From positions 1 through 20,717 of IMG/VR virus record IMGVR_UViG_3300022927_000152: a DNA stretch of 20,717 nucleotides. One strand, 5' to 3'. Within the stretch, counting starts at the first letter, position 1; each line of letters starts with the position of its first letter. A program made the position numbers and the translations under genes. This stretch comes from a virus. Shown in pieces: positions 9,447 through 20,717 of this stretch. The notes under the pieces are model-generated. The model had not been told where the DNA came from, did no database searches, and saw only the letters and a list, made by a program, of their open reading frames with translations.

Positions 9447-12400
9447 ATGGCCACTATTGAAGAACTGTTAAGTAAAGCTGTAAAAGGCTATCAGACAGGC
9501 GAAGAAGAGGATGAACCACAACAAGTTCAACCTCAACAACCTGTTATGTCACCAGAACAGTCACAAAAGCAAAGCAGTTCTATAAGTGACATGCTAAAAA
9601 ATGCAGTAAAAGACTACGATCCTGCAGAGAATGCAAGTAATAAAGTAGTAGAGGACGAAAATAAAGTAGTTGACACGTCAGGTGAGCCTTTAGTTGTGGC
9701 ACCTGAAGATAATCCCGTATATGCAGAGTACTATAATAAACGTATGTTACCCGTTAGTGATACATATAACGGTGTGGCAGTAAAACCATTCGTACAAAGT
9801 GTAGAAGAGCAGACTGAAGAAAACTTTTCTCGTACTAAAACTACACTAAGAGATATAGATTCATCAAATAAACAGATGCAATCTGACATTAAAGAGCTTG
9901 GTTATATAGAACAAATACTTCAAGACAAAAAACTTCCTGTTGACTTTATGACTAGATCAAAGGAAGACCTAAGTAAGTTACGTGCCGATGAATTATTAGA
10001 ATACATAGATCAGAAGAATGCAATTCAGACTGAAGCTGAACGCATGTACTATGAAGAGTATGTCAAACCTGCCATTGAAGAAGGATTAAACCCCAAAAAA
10101 GCAGAAGATCAACTAATAAAAGACTACTTAGACCTTACAGGTTTTAAAGGCTTTAATATACTACAAGCTTTGGGAACAGGTGTACAGCTTACTACTGATG
10201 CATACACAGATACAATACAAGAAGCACTAGAGATAGCCGAACAAAAAGGCATAGGCTTTGAAACAGTCAAAAATGTCCTGTCGTTTGGTGGTAAGTTTGA
10301 CGTAGGTGACACGCCTGAAGAAATGGCAGAGGATGTTGCAGATAAAACTGGTGCATTCATGGAGTTCATGGAAACCAACGCATTTATCGGTGGTCTTACA
10401 AAAGTTAAACCTACGTGGGTAAAAGATTATCAAAGGGCTATTAAGCTAGACAAAGAACTTGAGGTTGCTAGACGTAATAACTATGGCGGTGCTATGCTTG
10501 CCACATTACAGTCTAAAGAAGATGCACGTATTGCTGCCGATGCAATGGCGGGTAAGAACAAAGAGTTAATGGATAAGCTTATCATTGAGCACGAGATAAA
10601 CACAGGTGCTCGTGATGCAAATGGCACTATCATTGACGAAAATAAACTTATATCCATACAAAAAGAAGATGGTTCACTAGAAGTAGACTATGACCTAGCA
10701 CGTAAAGCTAGTGAAAGTACTAGACGAGATTTGTTTGACGTTCAAGTAGACGATGATGGAAGGGAAATTGTCGTTGCAGATCAGATGGCAATGCTTGTTG
10801 GTGCTGAAGAGGGCTTGATCTCTCCTGTACTAAACCCTGATAAGGCAAAGGCACTTGTTGCGGTTGTTGCTGACTTCAAGGAAAGATACCCTAACAGTAC
10901 AGTATTTAAAAACAAAGACAAAGGTGTCATAGAAACACTACTAGACCTTACCCTACAGAAAGAACTTGTAGGTACAGAGGAACTGATTACTGTTCTAAAT
11001 AAATACGGTCTGTCATTTGAAGAATACGTGTCTGCAAGTATTGGTTCTTTCAGTGACGCAGGTAAGCTTCTTAACATAGCAAGTCAGATTAAACGTGTAC
11101 GTCCTATTGGTGAAGTAAATGATATACAAACACGTAAGCTTCAGGAAGTACAGGATCGCATGTCACAGGCAGGTCAACGCCTTGAGAATGTTCGTCGTGG
11201 TGCAATGGTTAGCCAGATTGCTACAGCCATGCGTAACTTTGAAAGTGCCGCACTGCGTCTTCCTATGGATTCGCTTGGCAACATGATAGATACAGTCCTA
11301 GTTGAGTTTGGTAAGCCTATAACAGGCGGTGTAATAGACGGTAAAGGTGGATTTGTAGGCGCAGCTAAAGCTGTAGTAAACAAAGACCTGTGGAAAGATG
11401 CGTTCTCTTCACACAAATATGTGTTCTCTCGCCCTGATGTAGCCAAAGGTTTCTCTGATCTTATACTAGACAACCCTCAGTTTCAAACACAATCAAAACG
11501 TATGTATGATAACCTGAACGAAATCAGGAAGGCTACTGGACGTGGCGAAGGTGGATTAAACGATAAACTTCTTAACCCACTAGAAGACGTTGTTGAAATG
11601 ATGAACACTACTAACCAATGGCAAGAACACTTGGTTCGTCGTGGTGCATTTCTTGGTGAGCTACGTAGGCTTACTAAAAACGAATATGGTATTGACCTGA
11701 TTGATACTATGATTGAAGGTAAACTGCCTGACCTACTTAACGATGCAAGCACAGTACGCCCTGATAAGGCACGTTCTTTTGTTGCACTAGTCAATGACGC
11801 TGTTGAGTCTGCTTTGTCTGTTACCTACGCAAAACAACCTGACAATAAATTCTTCCAAGACTTAACTAACATGATCACTGGACGTAGAGTCTTTGGTATA
11901 CCACTAACTACCGTGGTAGAGTTCCCTAGATTTATGTTCAACAGTATGGAAATCATGGCGCAGTATGCTGCAGGTGGTGCTATCCCCCTGACTAAAAAGG
12001 TCATGGACATAGTTAATCCAAGTAAGAAAGAATTAACCAAGATGTCTCCAAAAGATAGGCTTGGTATTCAACGTAACTTGGTTGGACTTGCTGCTATCGG
12101 TGCTGCCTATCAGTACAGAACCAGTGAAAATGCACCTGAAGATTATAAGATGTTTGGTGCAGGTGAAAATGCAGTAGACACATCTCCTATGTTTCCAATG
12201 CGACAAATCTTGTACATTGGTGAATCTCTAAAGCACCTTAAAGAAGGTACATTTGGATCGCTGTGGTGGGATGGTAAAGAGTTTGCAGAAACTTTCATAG
12301 GTACTACGTTCAGAACGGGTACAGGTAATCTTATTATTGAAGAGATTGCGTCACTAGCAGATGGCATGGACATTTCTGGTAGTCAGGCTGCTGCAGAGGC

Positions 12401-13256
12401 GGCGGGTAAAGCTGTAGGTAATTACTTTACATCTTATCTAACAGGCTTTGGACAGTTCATTGATGCACAAAGAATGTATGGTCCTGTAGATGTGGATGTA
12501 GGTGGACAAGAGCTAACATTTGGACGTGAGAATACGTACAAGCAAGACCTAAAACCTGCACCTAAAGATGCAGTTGATGCTGTTAAACGTGGTTTGATGG
12601 ATAGTTACAACAGACGTTTCCGTGATGCTGAAGCTGAAAGAAAGATGGATGAAAAGGTAACTGTGTTCCCAGAGGACGTAGAACGTCCAGATGCTGCATG
12701 GAAGGTTACATTAGGTATCAACCTAAGTCCACGTGACTCCGACACTGGTGAGTACTTCATAGCGCACGGTACACCTAAGTGGAAGGTAGGTAGTAACTCT
12801 GACATTGATGCAGTTGCTGCACGTGAGAATGAAGAGATTGCTAAGTTCGTGCCTATGTTACACGATGCTATGCTTGCACTAGAGGATAGAGTGTTCAGAA
12901 AGAACTATGAAGCACTAAGACCTGAAGTAAAAGAAAAGTATAGTGAAGATGCATATGTCAAGCTTCAGATAAAACCAATCTTAGAACGCAAGCTTAGTGA
13001 GTTTAAGTCTGGACTAAGAGAAAAAGGTACAGAGGCTCTTGCCGATCCATTCTCTAGGGCGTTGTCAGAGTATAACAGCATACCAAAAGACTACAGACGT
13101 ATAGCTGTAATAGAATATATGAATGATCCTAAGAATGAAAATGCAGATGATCCAGATTTAACAAGCCCAGAAGTATTGAGGGAACTTATTAAACGGTCAA
13201 AGACAATACAGAAAACATATACCAGTAGTGGTAGAAGTGGATTGATGTCAAGATAG
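9447..13256 (+). CDS. Very large internal virion / ejection protein
   Basis: At 1269 residues this is the largest gene and the last of the virion arm, where T7 gp16-like ejection proteins lie. Residues 1-60 are disordered and hold two copies of I-x-x-[LM]-L-x-x-A-V-K-x-Y (4-15 and 46-57). The middle is helical and charged. Residues about 587-625 contain a conserved-looking phrase (SQIATAMRNFESAALRLPMD) that I know from giant internal proteins of marine podo- and cyanophages. Weakly hydrophobic stretches lie near 871-890 and 983-1005 and could contact membranes. The protein ends SGRSGLMSR. No peptidoglycan hydrolase or protease motif is evident. The role in DNA ejection is inferred from size, position and these phrases. 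Its stop lies 9 bases before the terminator hairpin. Confidence 0.62.
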   Translation: MATIEELLSKAVKGYQTGEEEDEPQQVQPQQPVMSPEQSQKQSSSISDMLKNAVKDYDPAENASNKVVEDENKVVDTSGEPLVVAPEDNPVYAEYYNKRMLPVSDTYNGVAVKPFVQSVEEQTEENFSRTKTTLRDIDSSNKQMQSDIKELGYIEQILQDKKLPVDFMTRSKEDLSKLRADELLEYIDQKNAIQTEAERMYYEEYVKPAIEEGLNPKKAEDQLIKDYLDLTGFKGFNILQALGTGVQLTTDAYTDTIQEALEIAEQKGIGFETVKNVLSFGGKFDVGDTPEEMAEDVADKTGAFMEFMETNAFIGGLTKVKPTWVKDYQRAIKLDKELEVARRNNYGGAMLATLQSKEDARIAADAMAGKNKELMDKLIIEHEINTGARDANGTIIDENKLISIQKEDGSLEVDYDLARKASESTRRDLFDVQVDDDGREIVVADQMAMLVGAEEGLISPVLNPDKAKALVAVVADFKERYPNSTVFKNKDKGVIETLLDLTLQKELVGTEELITVLNKYGLSFEEYVSASIGSFSDAGKLLNIASQIKRVRPIGEVNDIQTRKLQEVQDRMSQAGQRLENVRRGAMVSQIATAMRNFESAALRLPMDSLGNMIDTVLVEFGKPITGGVIDGKGGFVGAAKAVVNKDLWKDAFSSHKYVFSRPDVAKGFSDLILDNPQFQTQSKRMYDNLNEIRKATGRGEGGLNDKLLNPLEDVVEMMNTTNQWQEHLVRRGAFLGELRRLTKNEYGIDLIDTMIEGKLPDLLNDASTVRPDKARSFVALVNDAVESALSVTYAKQPDNKFFQDLTNMITGRRVFGIPLTTVVEFPRFMFNSMEIMAQYAAGGAIPLTKKVMDIVNPSKKELTKMSPKDRLGIQRNLVGLAAIGAAYQYRTSENAPEDYKMFGAGENAVDTSPMFPMRQILYIGESLKHLKEGTFGSLWWDGKEFAETFIGTTFRTGTGNLIIEEIASLADGMDISGSQAAAEAAGKAVGNYFTSYLTGFGQFIDAQRMYGPVDVDVGGQELTFGRENTYKQDLKPAPKDAVDAVKRGLMDSYNRRFRDAEAERKMDEKVTVFPEDVERPDAAWKVTLGINLSPRDSDTGEYFIAHGTPKWKVGSNSDIDAVAARENEEIAKFVPMLHDAMLALEDRVFRKNYEALRPEVKEKYSEDAYVKLQIKPILERKLSEFKSGLREKGTEALADPFSRALSEYNSIPKDYRRIAVIEYMNDPKNENADDPDLTSPEVLRELIKRSKTIQKTYTSSGRSGLMSR

Positions 13257-13873: not shown

Positions 13874-14318
13874 ATGCTACGTTAATTAGTTCTGCTTCAG
13901 TGTATGGTATGTGATAAAACAGTTCACCCTTTAAGATGTTACGTCCATATGCCTCACGTAGACGATCCTTCGTCAGGCTTGTATCCTTGATACGCCAAGC
14001 TTGCTTCATATCTTTACGGAAGATGTAGAAGTTAAGCACTCCATTCTCCCCCTCATATTTTTCAAGCAATCTTCCTTTACGTTCAGGTATACGAATGTCC
14101 TTCCAATCGGTAGGCCAATCACCTTTCCATGCAAGTTTTACTTCAGCTTCATTAAAGTATGTATAATCTTTTTTCGTTGATACAATATCCACATTGTAAT
14201 TCTCCTTCATGTCTGTTATCTCATGCCCTGCACCCGTTAGATACTCTGCAAGTTTTTCTTTTGCAGGTGCATCATATGCTTCGTATAGTGCACGGCTAAA
14301 TTGTTTACGTGTTCCCAT
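13872..14318 (-). CDS. Candidate PD-(D/E)XK nuclease
   Basis: The 148-residue protein has the order expected of a minimal PD-(D/E)XK nuclease: a helix with E21 (DAPAKEKLAEYLTGAG, 16-31), a strand with D44 (YNVDIVS), and a strand with E59-V-K61 (FNEAEVKLAW). The 14 residues between D44 and E59 form the hairpin DYTYF region. A following IPERKGRLLEKY segment (77-88) resembles the post-catalytic helix of this superfamily. It may degrade host DNA or trim ends, but the substrate is unknown. A GGAGG site sits 7 bases upstream inside the end of the DUF1289 gene, which overlaps it by 14 bases. The call rests on motif order only, so confidence is moderate. Confidence 0.5.
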   Translation of the reverse strand: MGTRKQFSRALYEAYDAPAKEKLAEYLTGAGHEITDMKENYNVDIVSTKKDYTYFNEAEVKLAWKGDWPTDWKDIRIPERKGRLLEKYEGENGVLNFYIFRKDMKQAWRIKDTSLTKDRLREAYGRNILKGELFYHIPYTEAELINVA

Positions 14319-14499
14319 TGTCGGCCCTCCACATTAGTTCAAATAAAAGTTTTTGTTGTTCGTACTCTGACATTATACACCAATCACGTATCTCGTCAAT
14401 AGTTCTTTTGCACCCCACGCAAAAGCCATCGTTATCTATACGACAGACCTTTACGCAGGGTGATGGAATAGTACCTAGCTGCTTACGGTTTCTACTCAC
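14305..14499 (-). CDS. DUF1289 four-cysteine protein
   Basis: The core is SPCVKVC, then ID-x-DGFCVGC, then RTIDEIRDW (C-x3-C-x7-C-x2-C), the signature of DUF1289, a small putative metal or Fe-S-binding family common in Proteobacteria. I chose the GTG at 14499, giving 64 residues, because it overlaps the RNR stop (GTGAGTAG) and leaves an N-terminus typical of the family. An in-frame ATG at 14547 would add 16 residues, including the hydrophobic MKVVLVTLILLLAYV, which would look like a membrane anchor but is coded inside the RNR tail. Neither start has a clear Shine-Dalgarno site. Its function is unknown; lying next to RNR, a redox role is conceivable. Confidence 0.75.
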   Translation of the reverse strand: MSRNRKQLGTIPSPCVKVCRIDNDGFCVGCKRTIDEIRDWCIMSEYEQQKLLFELMWRADNGNT

Positions 14500-16231
14500 A
14501 CTGACGTAAGCCAGTAGCAGGATCAAAGTAACAAGCACCACCTTCATCTACATAGTCTTGTGTTTCCTCTACCTGTGGCTCCTCTACAATGTCCTCAGAG
14601 CTAGATGCATTCAGGATACCGTAACGTTTACCTGCCGCACGGAATGTTGTACATCCTGATGCACCGCCATCGTATGCATCCATGTACACCTGTTTGAACT
14701 CTTCCCATGTTACATCGTCACCTGTGTTACATGTCTTTGAACATGCTGAGTCAACGTAACGTGATGCTACATTCAACACCTTGACATGATCAAACACAGA
14801 CAGTTCATCAGCAGTCTTACCTTTCACACCAAACACACGATAGCCGTAGTCTTCTACTCGTTCAACCTTGGGTCCATCAAAGGTTTGGATAGTTCTATCG
14901 TAGTAATGTGAGAAGACGGGTTCAATTCCAGAGGATACGTTGTCGGCTGACAAGCTGATAGTTCCTGTTGGAGCAACCGAAAGAAGATGACTGTTGCGAA
15001 TACCGTAAGTGCTGATGAGATCACGAATATTATCAGGCAAAGACTTAGCAAAATCAGAACCAAGGTATGCTTGACTAAAGAGAGGAAACGGACCTTTTTC
15101 AATAGCAAGTTCAACTGACGTAGTATACGCAACATCTCTAATCACTCCCATAATTTCTTCTAGTGTTTGTAGGAAACGATCACTGCCATACTCAAACCCT
15201 AATGCCTCAATAGCATTGGCTACACCTGTAACACCAAGACCCATGCGGCGTTTACTAATTGCCTCTGCTTTCTGTTCAATCAATGGATAGGTTGCACGAT
15301 CAACAACGTTGTCCATAGCACGTACTACATGAGGAATGTCATTACGTAGTTGGTTCATGTTGAATACGTACTTACCTTCATGCTCTAGTACATACTTTGT
15401 CAGGTTAAATGAACCTAGTAGACATGCACCGTTAGGTGGCAGTGGCTGCTCACCACATGGATTTGTGGCTGCAATAGTTTCTACATAGTGTAGATTGTTT
15501 TTCTTATTGATACGATCAATGAATAGAATCCCAGGTTCTGCCCAATCCCATGTACTACGTAGTATCTGATCCCATAGTGCACGAGCACTAACAGTTTTGT
15601 ATACACGTCCATCAAACTTTAGATCAAAGTCTTTGTCATCTTTTACCGCAGTCATAAACTCATCAGTCACACCTACAGAGATGTTGAACTGTGTCAGTGT
15701 ATCGCTGTTATTCTTAGCTGTAATAAACTCTTCAATGTCTGGGTGATCAACACGCAGCACACCCATCTGTGCACCACGACGATGCCCTGCAGATGCAATG
15801 GTACGACATACCGCATCAAAGATACCCATGAATGACACAGGACCAGACGACTTACTGTCTAGTGACTTGATCAGTGTACCACGTGGACGTAGTGTACTGA
15901 AGTCATAGCCAATGCCACCGCCAAGGCGCATTGTCTCTGCTGCACGACGAGCAGCTTCCATGATACCGTCCATGCTATCTTCAATTGTCATTGACACAAA
16001 GCAGTTGTACGGTGTTACACGACGAGGTGCGCCCATTGCTGACTGCACACGTCCTGCAGGTAGAAAGCGTTGTTCGTACAGGATTGTACGGAAGTTATTA
16101 AAATGTGTTTCATTATCTTTTAGTGCTTCAGCTACACGTGTCATTGCTTCTTTGAATGACTCGCCTTTGCTGCGATATTTCATTGCGTGAATCTCTTCTG
16201 AGATTGCTAGTGTTGGTCCATAAGTTTCCAT
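14492..16231 (-). CDS. nrdJ: Class II (adenosylcobalamin-dependent) ribonucleoside reductase
   Basis: The 579-residue enzyme reduces ribonucleotides to deoxyribonucleotides. Catalytic residues are visible: C77 (YNCF), the active-site loop NPCGEQ with N257, C259 and E261, and C270 in the ACLLGSFNL phrase typical of class II enzymes. PTGTISL follows in the C-terminal half. The end carries C567 and C578 (CYFDPATGLRQCE), the swinging redox pair. No radical-transfer Tyr pair or NrdB gene is seen nearby, in keeping with class II, which uses B12. I chose the ATG at 16231 because GGAG lies 8 bases upstream; the ATG at 16237 (two codons earlier) overlaps the previous stop. Supply of dNTPs for phage replication is the evident role. 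The host must provide cobalamin. Confidence 0.93.
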   Translation of the reverse strand: METYGPTLAISEEIHAMKYRSKGESFKEAMTRVAEALKDNETHFNNFRTILYEQRFLPAGRVQSAMGAPRRVTPYNCFVSMTIEDSMDGIMEAARRAAETMRLGGGIGYDFSTLRPRGTLIKSLDSKSSGPVSFMGIFDAVCRTIASAGHRRGAQMGVLRVDHPDIEEFITAKNNSDTLTQFNISVGVTDEFMTAVKDDKDFDLKFDGRVYKTVSARALWDQILRSTWDWAEPGILFIDRINKKNNLHYVETIAATNPCGEQPLPPNGACLLGSFNLTKYVLEHEGKYVFNMNQLRNDIPHVVRAMDNVVDRATYPLIEQKAEAISKRRMGLGVTGVANAIEALGFEYGSDRFLQTLEEIMGVIRDVAYTTSVELAIEKGPFPLFSQAYLGSDFAKSLPDNIRDLISTYGIRNSHLLSVAPTGTISLSADNVSSGIEPVFSHYYDRTIQTFDGPKVERVEDYGYRVFGVKGKTADELSVFDHVKVLNVASRYVDSACSKTCNTGDDVTWEEFKQVYMDAYDGGASGCTTFRAAGKRYGILNASSSEDIVEEPQVEETQDYVDEGGACYFDPATGLRQCE

Positions 16232-16236
16232 AAGCA

Positions 16237-16395
16237 TTACTCCGTTATTATTTTTATTGCTTTAATTGACATACCATCAATGTCATAAATAAATTCCTGC
16301 AGACATTGGTCAATTTCTTCATCAACTTCTCCGTCTACAGGAACTGGGTATTCATCTTCATCTATGTTCAGGGTTAAGAATACTTTAACTATCAT
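16237..16395 (-). CDS. Small acidic conserved-type phage protein (52 residues)
   Basis: This short frame fills what would otherwise be a 150-base gap. It reads MIVKVFLTLNIDEDEYPVPV at the start, followed by DGEVDEEIDQCLQEF and ending GMSIKAIKIITE. The pattern (beta strand, D-x-x-EYP-x-P-x-DG, acidic helix, 'DIDG-x-x-I' strand) recurs in small phage proteins I have seen, but no function is known to me. The start overlaps the DUF3310 end by 11 bases. Its TAA shares one base with the longer RNR ATG (TAATG), and the RNR ribosome site lies inside it. Length, composition and tight coupling on both sides support a real gene. A link to nucleotide metabolism is only suggested by neighbours. Confidence 0.75.
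   Translation of the reverse strand: MIVKVFLTLNIDEDEYPVPVDGEVDEEIDQCLQEFIYDIDGMSIKAIKIITE
16240..16243 (-). promoter_or_regulatory. Shine-Dalgarno site for RNR
   Basis: GGAG on the leftward strand, within the last codons of the 52-residue gene, lies 8 bases before the ATG at 16231 and only 2 bases before the ATG at 16237. This favours the shorter RNR start. Confidence 0.65.
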
Positions 16396-17623: not shown

Positions 17624-18475
17624 CTAATCCTCTATGTATGCCACCGTCTTGGGGTCTTTTGCTTTACTCATACGTGATGGTTCTTCAACCATCGTAGGCC
17701 AACACTCGTATCTGAAATCACAGAAACGACAGTTGTCATTTAGTACCTTATTCCCTGTGGGTTTACCACGAAAGAACTCAGGCACTGGACTGAAGCAACG
17801 TTTGAACTCGTTGTTGTTTACCGTTTCAACAGTTGTCTTGATTTTATCAAGTTCTTGGTCAAGGTCAAGACCATCAGCAGGTACGTATTTAAACTCACCA
17901 TTGCCTTTGTTCACGACCCACCATCCACCTACACGTTTGCCAGAAGCTTTGGCATAACCTGCAAGCTGCCCTACGTAACCGAACCCGTCACCCTTAGCTA
18001 GTGTAGCAAATGAATCAAACTTGTTCTGGTAGGACCAAGGTGATGCTGACTTCACGTCATCAACAGCACCGTCTAGGACAAGATCATAAGAGCCAGAAAC
18101 CCTAGTATCATTACTATCTCCCACTGTAAGGCTAACTTTATCAGTGTCTTCAAACTCCACACTAGCAGCTTTAAGCAGACCTTTAAAAACAGCCTCAACA
18201 ATATCTCCTATCATCATGTTCATTACAAATGTAGTCGGCTTTGGTAGAGCCTTATCGGGATGGTTCTTTTGAAACCACAGTTGACAAGTAGGACGCCCAA
18301 TGTTGGACATCCTAAGTGTAAACTCATCCCGTGACTTACCACTGCCGAACTGACGAAGTACTGCATCAGCAACCTCTGCACCAATATCTTTAGCTTGTTT
18401 CTCAGTGAACGTGCTCTTTCCATTGGCAGCATCAGTCATGAACTGGTGCAGCTTTAGTTCAGCAGGGTGGTTCAT
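17624..18475 (-). CDS. Cas4/RecB-like PD-(D/E)XK nuclease with Fe-S cysteines
   Basis: This is a 283-residue nuclease of the RecB/Cas4 type. Visible motifs are E94 (MIGDIVEAV), D131 (GSYDLVLDG), D140-V-K142 (DDVKSA) and Q170-x3-Y174 (GQLAGYA), the standard order for this superfamily. Four cysteines, C64 (RPTCQLW) and C249, C252, C258 (C-x2-C-x5-C near the end), match the Fe-S staple of AddB and Cas4 nucleases. Such enzymes are DNA exonucleases; in T7-like phages an exonuclease (gp6 in T7) works with endonuclease I in host DNA breakdown and primer removal. I infer the same division of labour here. It is coupled to the SSB gene upstream by a TAATG overlap at 18475. No cas genes are nearby, so a CRISPR role is unlikely. 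Confidence 0.82.
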   Translation of the reverse strand: MNHPAELKLHQFMTDAANGKSTFTEKQAKDIGAEVADAVLRQFGSGKSRDEFTLRMSNIGRPTCQLWFQKNHPDKALPKPTTFVMNMMIGDIVEAVFKGLLKAASVEFEDTDKVSLTVGDSNDTRVSGSYDLVLDGAVDDVKSASPWSYQNKFDSFATLAKGDGFGYVGQLAGYAKASGKRVGGWWVVNKGNGEFKYVPADGLDLDQELDKIKTTVETVNNNEFKRCFSPVPEFFRGKPTGNKVLNDNCRFCDFRYECWPTMVEEPSRMSKAKDPKTVAYIED

Positions 18476-19365
18476 TACACGAAATCCTCTGCGTCAATAT
18501 CCACGAATGACTCAACAGTATCTGTGTCTGTGTCATCATTCTTGTACGCATTGTCATCCCAAGCACCCTTGATGTACTGGTTGTAATTCTCCACCCATGC
18601 TAGAAAGTTGGCAAATGTTTCCTGCTCTGCGTCTGACACATCAAGTGTCTCGTTCAGATCAAGAGCCAACGTAGGCAGGTAGAACTTACTACCGTTAGGC
18701 AATGAACGTTCTTCAGTTGCAGCTTTGATGTTGTGCTGCACTGGCAAACGGCGCATCTTGCCTAGCTTGTTGAACAGTGTTCCTGCAGTTTTAAATGCAT
18801 CACGGTTTTCAATCTCCCAGATGAATGCCTGTTCATCTAGTTCAACTGGATTACCCTGTGCATCAGTAACGTCATGCAGTTGCACTGTACCGAACATAAC
18901 ACGAACACGTTTGATCTGACGGATCAACTCTTGTGTTTTCTCAGGTAATGCTGCGAAGTCTTCAATATAACCTGCAGGTTTACCACAGTTGAAGCCACCA
19001 TCATTATCCTTCATGTCATTGTTCAGATCGTTAGCCATCAGAGTTTTGACATAACGGTTAGGTGTTGTGTCGTTACCCTTGATAAAACGCTTGTACATGA
19101 AGCGTTGTAGGTATGGACGAATAGTCGCAGTAGATGCATAGTACGTTGGCCCATCTGGGATTTCCAACTTGTATGTACCACCTGATACAACTTCCATCTT
19201 TACCTTCTTGCCGTTCACTGTTTCCTCACCCATGATAGCTGAGTGATTGATACGTAAACGTGCAAGTGTACTTGCTTGTGACTTCTGATTGTTGTCAACA
19301 GACATGCCCATTGCTTCAGCCATTGCGTTGAAGTTACTAGTGTTAATTGTTGCTACTTGATTCAT
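18475..19365 (-). CDS. Single-stranded DNA-binding protein candidate
   Basis: The 296-residue protein has an N-terminal region resembling phage ssDNA-binding folds (STLARLRINHSAIMGEETV, then beta strands up to about 85), an aromatic/basic middle (YLQRFMYKRFI) and a strongly acidic tail over the last 30 residues ending DIDAEDFV. Acidic C-terminal tails with an aromatic residue near the end are typical of T7 gp2.5 and other SSBs, which use them to bind polymerase and helicase. Its place directly after DNA polymerase and before the recombination nucleases fits. Sequence similarity to a named SSB family cannot be shown by eye, so the call rests on architecture and synteny. It has a strong AAAAGGAG site 7 bases before the ATG and a sigma70-like promoter just upstream. 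Confidence 0.68.
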   Translation of the reverse strand: MNQVATINTSNFNAMAEAMGMSVDNNQKSQASTLARLRINHSAIMGEETVNGKKVKMEVVSGGTYKLEIPDGPTYYASTATIRPYLQRFMYKRFIKGNDTTPNRYVKTLMANDLNNDMKDNDGGFNCGKPAGYIEDFAALPEKTQELIRQIKRVRVMFGTVQLHDVTDAQGNPVELDEQAFIWEIENRDAFKTAGTLFNKLGKMRRLPVQHNIKAATEERSLPNGSKFYLPTLALDLNETLDVSDAEQETFANFLAWVENYNQYIKGAWDDNAYKNDDTDTDTVESFVDIDAEDFV

Positions 19366-19397: not shown

Positions 19398-19426
19398 GTT
19401 ATATCACGACACATCTTTTGTGTCAA
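19398..19426 (-). promoter_or_regulatory. Near-consensus sigma70 promoter for the SSB operon
   Basis: On the leftward strand TTGACA (19421-19426) is separated by exactly 17 bases from TATAAC (19398-19403), and TGA directly precedes the -10, making it an extended -10 promoter. The -35 is a perfect consensus and the -10 matches 5 of 6. The -35 lies inside the last codons of the polymerase gene and the -10 immediately follows its stop (19404-19406). Transcription would start near 19391, about 25 bases before the SSB start codon. It implies that host RNA polymerase reads this operon. Confidence 0.72.
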
Positions 19427-20717
19427 GCCAATTTGGACCGATCTTTGCCTCTAATAAAAGTGGTACATTGAAATCCAGTTTCCACTTCTTATTAACGATG
19501 GCAAGCAGTCGGTCATTGGCTGCATGAATAATCCGTAATACTTTGTCCTTCTCGTTGGGATGCACATCAATCACGATGGAGTCGTGTACGGTATTGACGA
19601 TGCATGATTGCATTTGGTTAGCCCCTAATAACTTGTCAATGTATATCAGGGATATAGGTACAATGTCAGCAGTGGCAAACGATTGTACAGGAAAGTTTTT
19701 AATCTGTGTGAAAAATGTCACAGTACCATTTGCACGGCGAGTAACATCAGGGAAAGAGAACTCACGACCAGATGGTGTTTTGATCTTACCCGTAGCTAGT
19801 GCCTCACGTGCTAGGTCTTTGTGCCACTTGCCAATGCCAGAGTATTTCTTAGTAAACTGCTCGTAGTACGCAGCCTCTGCAGGTGTACGACCAAATCCAC
19901 TGGCACCATATAACGGAGCAAATGTATGTGCCTTGGCCTCTTGGCGTGACATGTTCTGTCCTGCATCAGTAATGACCTGTGCAGTGTATGAGTGTACATC
20001 AAAGCCTGTGGTCACCTCATCAATGGCGGTCTTGTCCTGTGATAGGAACGCAGCCACACGAAACTCTAACTGTGCAAAGTCGGCTTCCATGATCTCACCG
20101 CCATCCCAACGTGACTTGAACACACGTTTCACAGGGAACGTACCACCACGTGGCATGTTCTGCATGTTAGGATCGGCACCAGACAAACGTCCAGTAGCGG
20201 TGCGGTGTTGAAGTAACCTGACGTGCAGCTTACCATCTTGCTTTACATGTGTTGAGATACCTTCCACAAAGCTTGAGAGATATGTGTCAACGGCAGACAA
20301 ACGGCGTACTCGTTGTAAGAACAACACTGCGTCTTGCATATTACGTTCTCTAGCGACACCTTCAAGGTATTCAAGCTTATCTTTACTTGTTGCGAAACCG
20401 TTGGCTGAAGCCCATTTTGAAGTTGGAGCATTGAACTTTAACCCCGCAACTGTGCTACGTATATCCATGAAAATATATCCTGTAGCATTACATGTTGTAC
20501 ATTTGTTTGGTCTTGCATATCGTGTACCATCCTTTCTTGTTTTGTATGTGTGTCCTGTGCCATTGCAAGTACTGCACTGTTTAGCCTTTTGTTTGTACAA
20601 CATCACACTGTTCTGACGTACCGTGCTACGATACTCTGTGTCAGACATACGAAAGTCATCAAACAAATCTGCCCACACTTTCTTGTCCTTGGGTTTCTTG
20701 CTGTAGATAACCCATGA
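19404..20717 (-). CDS. polA: DNA polymerase A with DnaJ-type zinc finger (5' truncated)
   Basis: The frame is open through the window edge (SWVIYSKKPKDKK precedes the GTG at 20678), so the N-terminal exonuclease part lies outside. Counting from that codon: two CxxCxGxG-type motifs, CSTCNGTG (35-42) and CTTCNATG (60-67), form a DnaJ-like zinc finger. The polymerase domain follows with motif A EADFAQLEFRVAAFLS (D200), motif B RQEAKAHTFAPLYGASGFG (R245, K249, F253, Y257) and motif C VHDSIVID (H365, D366). This finger-plus-PolA layout is known from HMO-2011-type phages. F253 matches E. coli Pol I F762. Motif C has HDS where the usual family form is HDE. It replicates the phage genome and heads the leftward arm visible here. 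Confidence 0.95.
   Translation of the reverse strand, partial: SWVIYSKKPKDKKVWADLFDDFRMSDTEYRSTVRQNSVMLYKQKAKQCSTCNGTGHTYKTRKDGTRYARPNKCTTCNATGYIFMDIRSTVAGLKFNAPTSKWASANGFATSKDKLEYLEGVARERNMQDAVLFLQRVRRLSAVDTYLSSFVEGISTHVKQDGKLHVRLLQHRTATGRLSGADPNMQNMPRGGTFPVKRVFKSRWDGGEIMEADFAQLEFRVAAFLSQDKTAIDEVTTGFDVHSYTAQVITDAGQNMSRQEAKAHTFAPLYGASGFGRTPAEAAYYEQFTKKYSGIGKWHKDLAREALATGKIKTPSGREFSFPDVTRRANGTVTFFTQIKNFPVQSFATADIVPISLIYIDKLLGANQMQSCIVNTVHDSIVIDVHPNEKDKVLRIIHAANDRLLAIVNKKWKLDFNVPLLLEAKIGPNWLDTKDVS
19408..19424. repeat. Inverted repeat in the promoter spacer (operator-like dyad)
   Basis: GACACA and TGTGTC form a perfect 6-bp dyad around a 5-base centre. It overlaps the -35 and fills most of the spacer of the SSB promoter, the position of a repressor operator. 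It is also the coding sequence for the polymerase C-terminus (DTKDV), and there is no T-run, so it is not an intrinsic terminator. Confidence 0.55.

Follow-up and report, generated by a model that had tools for sequence, protein, structure and literature searches.

HMO-2011-type phages, reported as one of the dominant groups of marine phages (PMC9038755), have as their published hallmark a "partial DnaJ central domain" between the exonuclease and polymerase domains of their DNA polymerase (PMC6918029, PMC9038755), and this domain has been reported in 207 metagenomic genomes (PMC9038755). With respect to its function, the authors report the domain and only mention the role of DnaJ in lambda replication (PMC9038755), and we found no functional study or biochemistry of this finger in the literature searched, in line with a first-pass annotation of the DNA described here, which had called its job not established. 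Additions to the thumb are described in two other systems. In phage T7, basic residues of the thioredoxin-binding domain (TBD) of gp5 contact the DNA backbone (PMC5984650), thioredoxin stimulates the binding of gp5 to gp2.5 and gp4, and the acidic tails of gp4 bind basic patches of gp5, one of them near the TBD (PMC12593628); a contact between SSB and the TBD is also stated for T7 (PMC7699545). In plant organellar DNA polymerases, insertion 1 of the thumb is proposed to contribute to clamping of the primer-template (PMC7699545).

The window polymerase and its DnaJ-like finger

The window, i.e., the whole stretch of DNA that was analyzed, is a virus record of 20,717 bases, both ends of which fall inside genes. 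Its last gene encodes a family A DNA polymerase (DNA_pol_A, PF00476, E = 6.8e-51 in Pfam) whose 5' end is cut off by the window edge, with the N-terminal ~246 aa (the 3'-5' exonuclease and the start of the thumb) lying beyond the window end. The polymerase and its main sequence features are as follows.

19404..20717, minus strand: family A DNA polymerase, of which 437 aa (thumb, palm and fingers) are encoded in the window, frame open at the window end
20478..20576, minus strand: DnaJ-type zinc finger with two CxxCx(G/A)xG motifs, window residues 48-80
20079..20081, minus strand: palm motif A aspartate (ADFAQLEFR), corresponding to the invariant D459 of A2
19578..19586, minus strand: palm motif C (HDS), corresponding to the invariant H624-D625-S626 of A2

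Among isolates, Roseobacter phage CRP-1 is the closest, with a polymerase that is 94.5% identical over 437 aa, followed in order by CRP-345, HMO-2011, CRP-2, HTVC033P, CRP-3 and CRP-738. With CRP-1 and HMO-2011 among the nearest relatives and the domain already published, the earlier attribution of the finger to HMO-2011-type phages is well founded. The polymerases of HMO-2011, CRP-1, CRP-738 and HTVC033P carry, in the same gene as in the window, a two-motif finger between exonuclease and palm, whereas the window copy differs in its CxxCxAxG second motif and in an N terminus truncated at the window edge. This domain architecture had been described before, and the window adds one further close relative. 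HMO-2011-type capsid and large terminase genes were not found inside the 20.7-kb window.

Full-length relatives of the window polymerase have 678 to 716 aa; the nearest full-length viral-contig copy that we used (L016, 683 aa) matches the window residues with a gapless offset of 246. The full-length relatives contain the exonuclease domain PF01612 (E = 1e-10 for L016), and its residues D7, E9, D80, Y153 and D157 are invariant in them, as are the palm catalytic residues, so that in the relatives the enzyme is a complete proofreading polymerase. The N-terminal 3'-5' exonuclease that had been expected is therefore retained in the full-length relatives, and the finger lies between it and the polymerase domain, although in the window itself the exonuclease falls off the end.

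In the window frame the finger reads CSTCNGTGHTYKTRKDGTRYARPNKCTTCNATG, that is, CSTCNGTG, 17 aa and then CTTCNATG, with the first cysteines of the two motifs 25 residues apart, the inner cysteines separated by 21 residues and the full motifs by 17. The first-pass annotation had described this motif pair, with its 25-residue spacing, as a DnaJ-type finger joined to a family A DNA polymerase; the pair is present at exactly 20478-20576, and the joining is upheld by the DNA_pol_A match together with the four-cysteine pattern in relatives. The match to DnaJ_CXXCXGXG (PF00684; E = 4.7e-5, 24.0 bits) falls under the Pfam gathering score of 32.7. The second motif of the window, CxxCxAxG, is a slight variant of CxxCxGxG that is common in the family: among 231 relatives tallied, the residue at the variant position is G in 160, A in 48 (as in the window), S in 14, T in 5 and K in 3, and one of the 231 has A at two positions of the second motif.

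These relatives were drawn from 240 loci recovered in three viral-contig scans and five phage records (245 in all). Automatic frame choice found the four-cysteine pattern in 231 of the 245; for the other 14, frame picking failed or the locus ends, and once all frames were read the finger appeared in 13, the remaining locus (L241) beginning after the finger site. All 244 relatives covering the site keep the four cysteines. Since the search patterns in two of the three scans lay mostly or wholly outside the finger, this conservation is no product of the search, and the four-cysteine pattern is not due to chance. Furthermore, we observe that none of the 31 representatives departs from the four cysteines or from three of the four motif glycines, and that (in L016 numbering) the hairpin columns K305 and R/K307 are basic in 100% and K318 in 90% of them, with the flanking columns K288 and K340 basic in 97% and 100%, respectively. 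The conserved K/R columns of the hairpin agree with the earlier description of the loop between the motifs as basic, and at the median the finger charge ranks in the top ~5% of same-length windows in its own protein.

The finger profile aligns with motifs 2 and 3 of E. coli DnaJ (C161, C183; E = 5.2e-6), and at the level of sequence the finger is a match to DnaJ zinc site II. It shares with the cysteine-rich domain of DnaJ (Hsp40) the motif sequence of this site and a near-equal spacing, but differs in having two motifs rather than four (motifs 1 and 4 are missing, so that the two zinc sites of DnaJ are not both represented), in standing in a polymerase thumb and in its basic hairpin. A Pfam scan of three full-length polymerases found no J domain; of the HPD triplets inspected, each belongs either to the palm, close to motif C, or to the exonuclease region at the N terminus. 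Cellular PolA was said to lack the finger, and indeed, in 78 cellular PolA sequences, the 260 residues preceding TGRLS contain no paired CxxC. An insert-only search of the GenBank phage collection returned 12 records, all of the HMO-2011 group, and outside this group two weak matches to one Aeromonas phage (E = 0.8). Prophage or cellular copies were considered as well and rejected, as among the matches listed by a genome-contig scan the best 80 are only ~27 to 33% identical and look like cellular PolA.

Thumb position and related insertions

The finger had been placed just ahead of the palm; the order is right, and the thumb is the more precise location, with ~130 residues separating the finger from the palm aspartate. 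The elements around it, assigned from profile alignments and from a structure model, are listed here.

20448..20699, minus strand: thumb insertion carrying the finger, between helices H1 and H2, window residues 7-90
20700..20717, minus strand: end of thumb helix H1 (SWVIYS), cut at the window end, aligned with E. coli PolA FNLSSTKQLQTILFEK
20577..20597, minus strand: predicted stalk strand 1 (YKQKAKQ, residues 41-47), L016 model strand 287-293 by offset
20448..20477, minus strand: predicted stalk strand 2 (YIFMDIRSTV, residues 81-90), L016 model strand 327-336 by offset
20346..20384, minus strand: thumb helix H2 (KDKLEYLEGVARE), model helix 358-370, aligned with E. coli STSEEVLEEL

An AlphaFold2 model of the 683-aa L016 polymerase, built from 52 sequences without DNA and without zinc, has a mean pLDDT of 89.9 (84 to 93 for the finger blocks) and is similar in fold to Bst and Klenow PolI (lowest Foldseek E about 1e-28). 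Its thumb consists of helix H (204-233), a short H1 (243-251), H2 (358-370) and a long helix I (374-403); between H1 and H2 the model has a pair of small helices and a stalk of two strands (287-293, 327-336), which bears the finger. When, independently of the model, HMO-type and cellular PolA profiles are compared (E = 1.4e-18), INLNSPEQL pairs with E. coli FNLSSTKQL and the whole insert is left unpaired before the STSEEVL helix; comparison with zinc-less phage polymerases gives the same H1-H2 place (E = 8.5e-16). Across 28 representatives the insert measures 82 to 109 aa and has a net charge of +4 to +18. By these alignments and in the predicted structure, the finger sits in a basic thumb insertion between H1 and H2, on a two-strand stalk.

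With respect to T7, a comparison of T7-type and cellular PolA profiles (E = 3.9e-11) puts the extra T7 domain just before FNPSS. The T7 insertion precedes H1 and the HMO-type insertion follows it, so that the two are separate insertions flanking H1 on opposite sides; as judged from the aligned sequences, the finger and the TBD are different insertions that share one end of the thumb. Both are basic and near the thumb tip of a phage family A polymerase, whereas the T7 domain stands on the other side of H1, between helices H and H1, and is without the zinc motif. The suggestion of a thioredoxin-like processivity site needs correcting as to position: the finger does not occupy the T7 thioredoxin-binding loop. 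A first direct alignment of HMO-type and T7 polymerases had hinted that it does, and this placement was given up when the PolA comparisons put the two on opposite sides of H1. Insertion 1 of the plant organellar polymerases is, like the finger insert, in the thumb and lysine-rich (PMC7699545), but no zinc motif is described for it and the enzyme is a cellular, organellar one.

H1-H2 insertions without cysteine pairs are found in Zobellviridae (ICP2, MEP401), in QDWS535 and in Autographiviridae (Aristophanes, PPWS2, Scott, SWcelC56), and many of them show a basic stretch, [YF]K-x-G-x-x-x-G-E-[PV]-[KR]. These insertions share with the finger insert the site and a basic stretch such as YKSGKRMGEPRY, but differ from it in their lack of cysteine pairs. 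A homologous hairpin in the zinc-less sisters was considered and dropped: MAFFT aligned it, but hhalign left the finger unpaired (in the compact class), and we therefore claim only a shared insertion site. StenR_269 and Vibrio phages VpV262, 1.070.O and 1.209.O have polymerases without an insertion at this site, and cellular PolA has none either.

In a full-length tree with the insert masked, in which CRP-1 stands for the window, the finger-bearing polymerases form one clade (support 95/94); in a palm tree the window polymerase itself groups with CRP-1 and HMO-2011. The palm-only tree places an insertion-less group among the finger-bearing polymerases, which hinted that these are not one clade, but its branches are long and we regard it as less trustworthy than the masked full-length tree. 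One origin of the finger-bearing polymerases is the simplest reading. Further finger-bearing polymerases (L445-L451; CTTCKGRGSVFKIRKDGSRYKKPTKCKDC) came up in a search with a query from a different phage family, and the two of them that were placed on the tree both join the HMO-2011 clade. A separate observation concerns split family A polymerases (L419, 756-2849; L421, 783-2698; L506-L546), whose frame breaks between TGRLS and palm motif A. Such a break is seen in ICP2, in QDWS535 and in all 38 MEP401-type loci that include both parts. For MEP401 the split is already published (PMC10580990); in ICP2 an in-frame stop, followed by a restart, lies at almost the same position.

In the papers that we reached, we found no description of the exact thumb position, the contrast with T7, the match to DnaJ site II or the insertions of the zinc-less sisters. 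Exact placement in the thumb, opposite the T7 thioredoxin site, makes the question of function easier to test, with zinc-less sisters such as MEP401 and the insertion-less StenR_269 as control enzymes, and it raises the question of whether two additions to the thumb tip arose separately in phages to serve one purpose.

Candidate roles of the finger

Starting from the sequence, conservation, thumb position, basic charge and single-clade distribution observed here, we infer a zinc-stiffened grip of the thumb tip on the primer-template duplex that raises processivity, a reading to which we give slightly less than an even chance. The finger would bind one zinc ion, which would give rigidity to the basic hairpin of the thumb tip; when the thumb closes over the primer-template, the conserved Lys/Arg residues would contact the new duplex at its backbone or minor groove and slow dissociation of the polymerase, so that the finger would be a built-in processivity or DNA-grip element. 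It would work like the T7 TBD or the lysine-rich thumb insertion of plants, with a separate origin. The thumb is the part of the polymerase that holds the duplex behind the active site, and the deleted Klenow residues 590-613 of the Minnick truncation reportedly cover the H1-H2 loop. Thumb truncation is cited as lowering the processivity of Pol I (Minnick 1996, as cited in PMC10061031). Two points count against a grip on DNA: the basic surface also fits the binding of acidic protein tails, and the best-known ligands of DnaJ-type fingers are proteins rather than DNA.

A candidate partner for such binding is encoded next to the polymerase.

18475..19365, minus strand: gene just downstream of the polymerase, adjacent across the HMO-2011-type group, candidate replisome partner

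The model of this protein has a confident mixed alpha/beta core (pLDDT ~90) and an acidic, disordered C-terminal tail. In the subgroup of the window the tails have a net charge of about -9 to -11 over 30 residues and end in ...DIDAEDFV or ...EEDFA, with a near-terminal Phe, and they are reminiscent of SSB-type tails, which in T7 dock at the thumb domain. The protein has no Pfam or NCBIfam match, an SSB family match included; 10 of 48 relatives have one weak match to an uncharacterized PHROG, and a search with the fold gave no solved-structure match at E <= 0.001. An assignment as SSB was not retained, for want of a family or fold match, and the gene is a candidate for a new ssDNA-binding or replisome protein.

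The main rival to the DNA grip is that the finger docks the acidic C-terminal tails of replisome partners, foremost that of the downstream protein, on the model of the T7 TBD, which recruits gp2.5 and gp4; both could hold together, and we consider docking possible, if somewhat doubtful. It is favored by the basic finger, by an adjacent gene that is conserved in synteny and has an acidic tail, by the predicted disorder of that tail and by the gp4 tails that bind basic gp5 patches in T7. HMO-type helicases have no acidic tail, so that the docking partner would have to be another protein, and the downstream protein is without SSB family or fold match. In the HTVC033P subgroup, moreover, its tail is much less acidic (-1 to -6) though the finger is equally basic. 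Short zinc sites often just hold the shape of a loop, and the finger may likewise be a mere structural staple, its zinc shaping the thumb-tip loop and adding stability with no distinct job. Sister polymerases with zinc-less insertions at the same site are consistent with this, but a pure staple needs no lysines, and those of the hairpin are conserved besides the cysteines and glycines, which makes the staple unlikely.

The remaining alternatives borrow from other systems. Insertions in the thumb of plant organellar polymerases and those of polymerase theta are the models for a finger that tunes lesion bypass, end handling or strand displacement, and AtPolI depends on its lysine-rich insertion 1 for both lesion bypass and end joining (PMC7699545). 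The finger insert has no known sequence relation to these insertions, however, and a proofreading replicative phage enzyme, with its exonuclease residues invariant, has less need of such a role, which we judge improbable. Recruitment of the host Hsp70 system, as by DnaJ in lambda replication, would fit the likeness to DnaJ zinc site II and a precedent raised by the authors who reported the domain (PMC9038755), but with two of the four DnaJ motifs only and no J domain in the three polymerases scanned, recruitment of DnaK was set aside as very improbable. Slimmer still is the chance that the finger binds a host or phage thioredoxin or glutaredoxin, or is a redox switch: T7 offers the precedent and some HMO-2011-type phages have a glutaredoxin gene, but the finger is in a different thumb loop from the T7 TBD, and the family searches run saw no glutaredoxin gene in the window.

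A broader and rather unlikely reading joins the grip on DNA with docking: the H1-H2 loop may be a second general replisome add-on site, distinct from the H-H1 site of T7, at which the finger would both clamp DNA and dock the acidic tail of the neighboring gene's product. Several phage lineages would then carry a basic hairpin there, which HMO-2011-type phages would have turned into, or replaced with, a DnaJ-like finger. If true, the clamp for processivity would be self-contained, so that host thioredoxin would not be needed.

Other genes of the window

Three further genes of the window were noted.

9447-13256, plus strand: 1269-aa protein, unmatched to any family of Pfam, PHROGs or NCBIfam
14305-14547, minus strand: DUF1289 protein, a small cysteine-rich domain (Pfam, E = 1.4e-16) in a phage metabolic module
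14492-16237, minus strand: ribonucleotide reductase, NrdJ-type (TIGR02504, 519 bits)

The ribonucleotide reductase of CRP-1 is RTPR-type and has almost no similarity to the NrdJ-type enzyme of the window, an apparent swap of this gene between near relatives whose polymerases are as close as those of the window and CRP-1.
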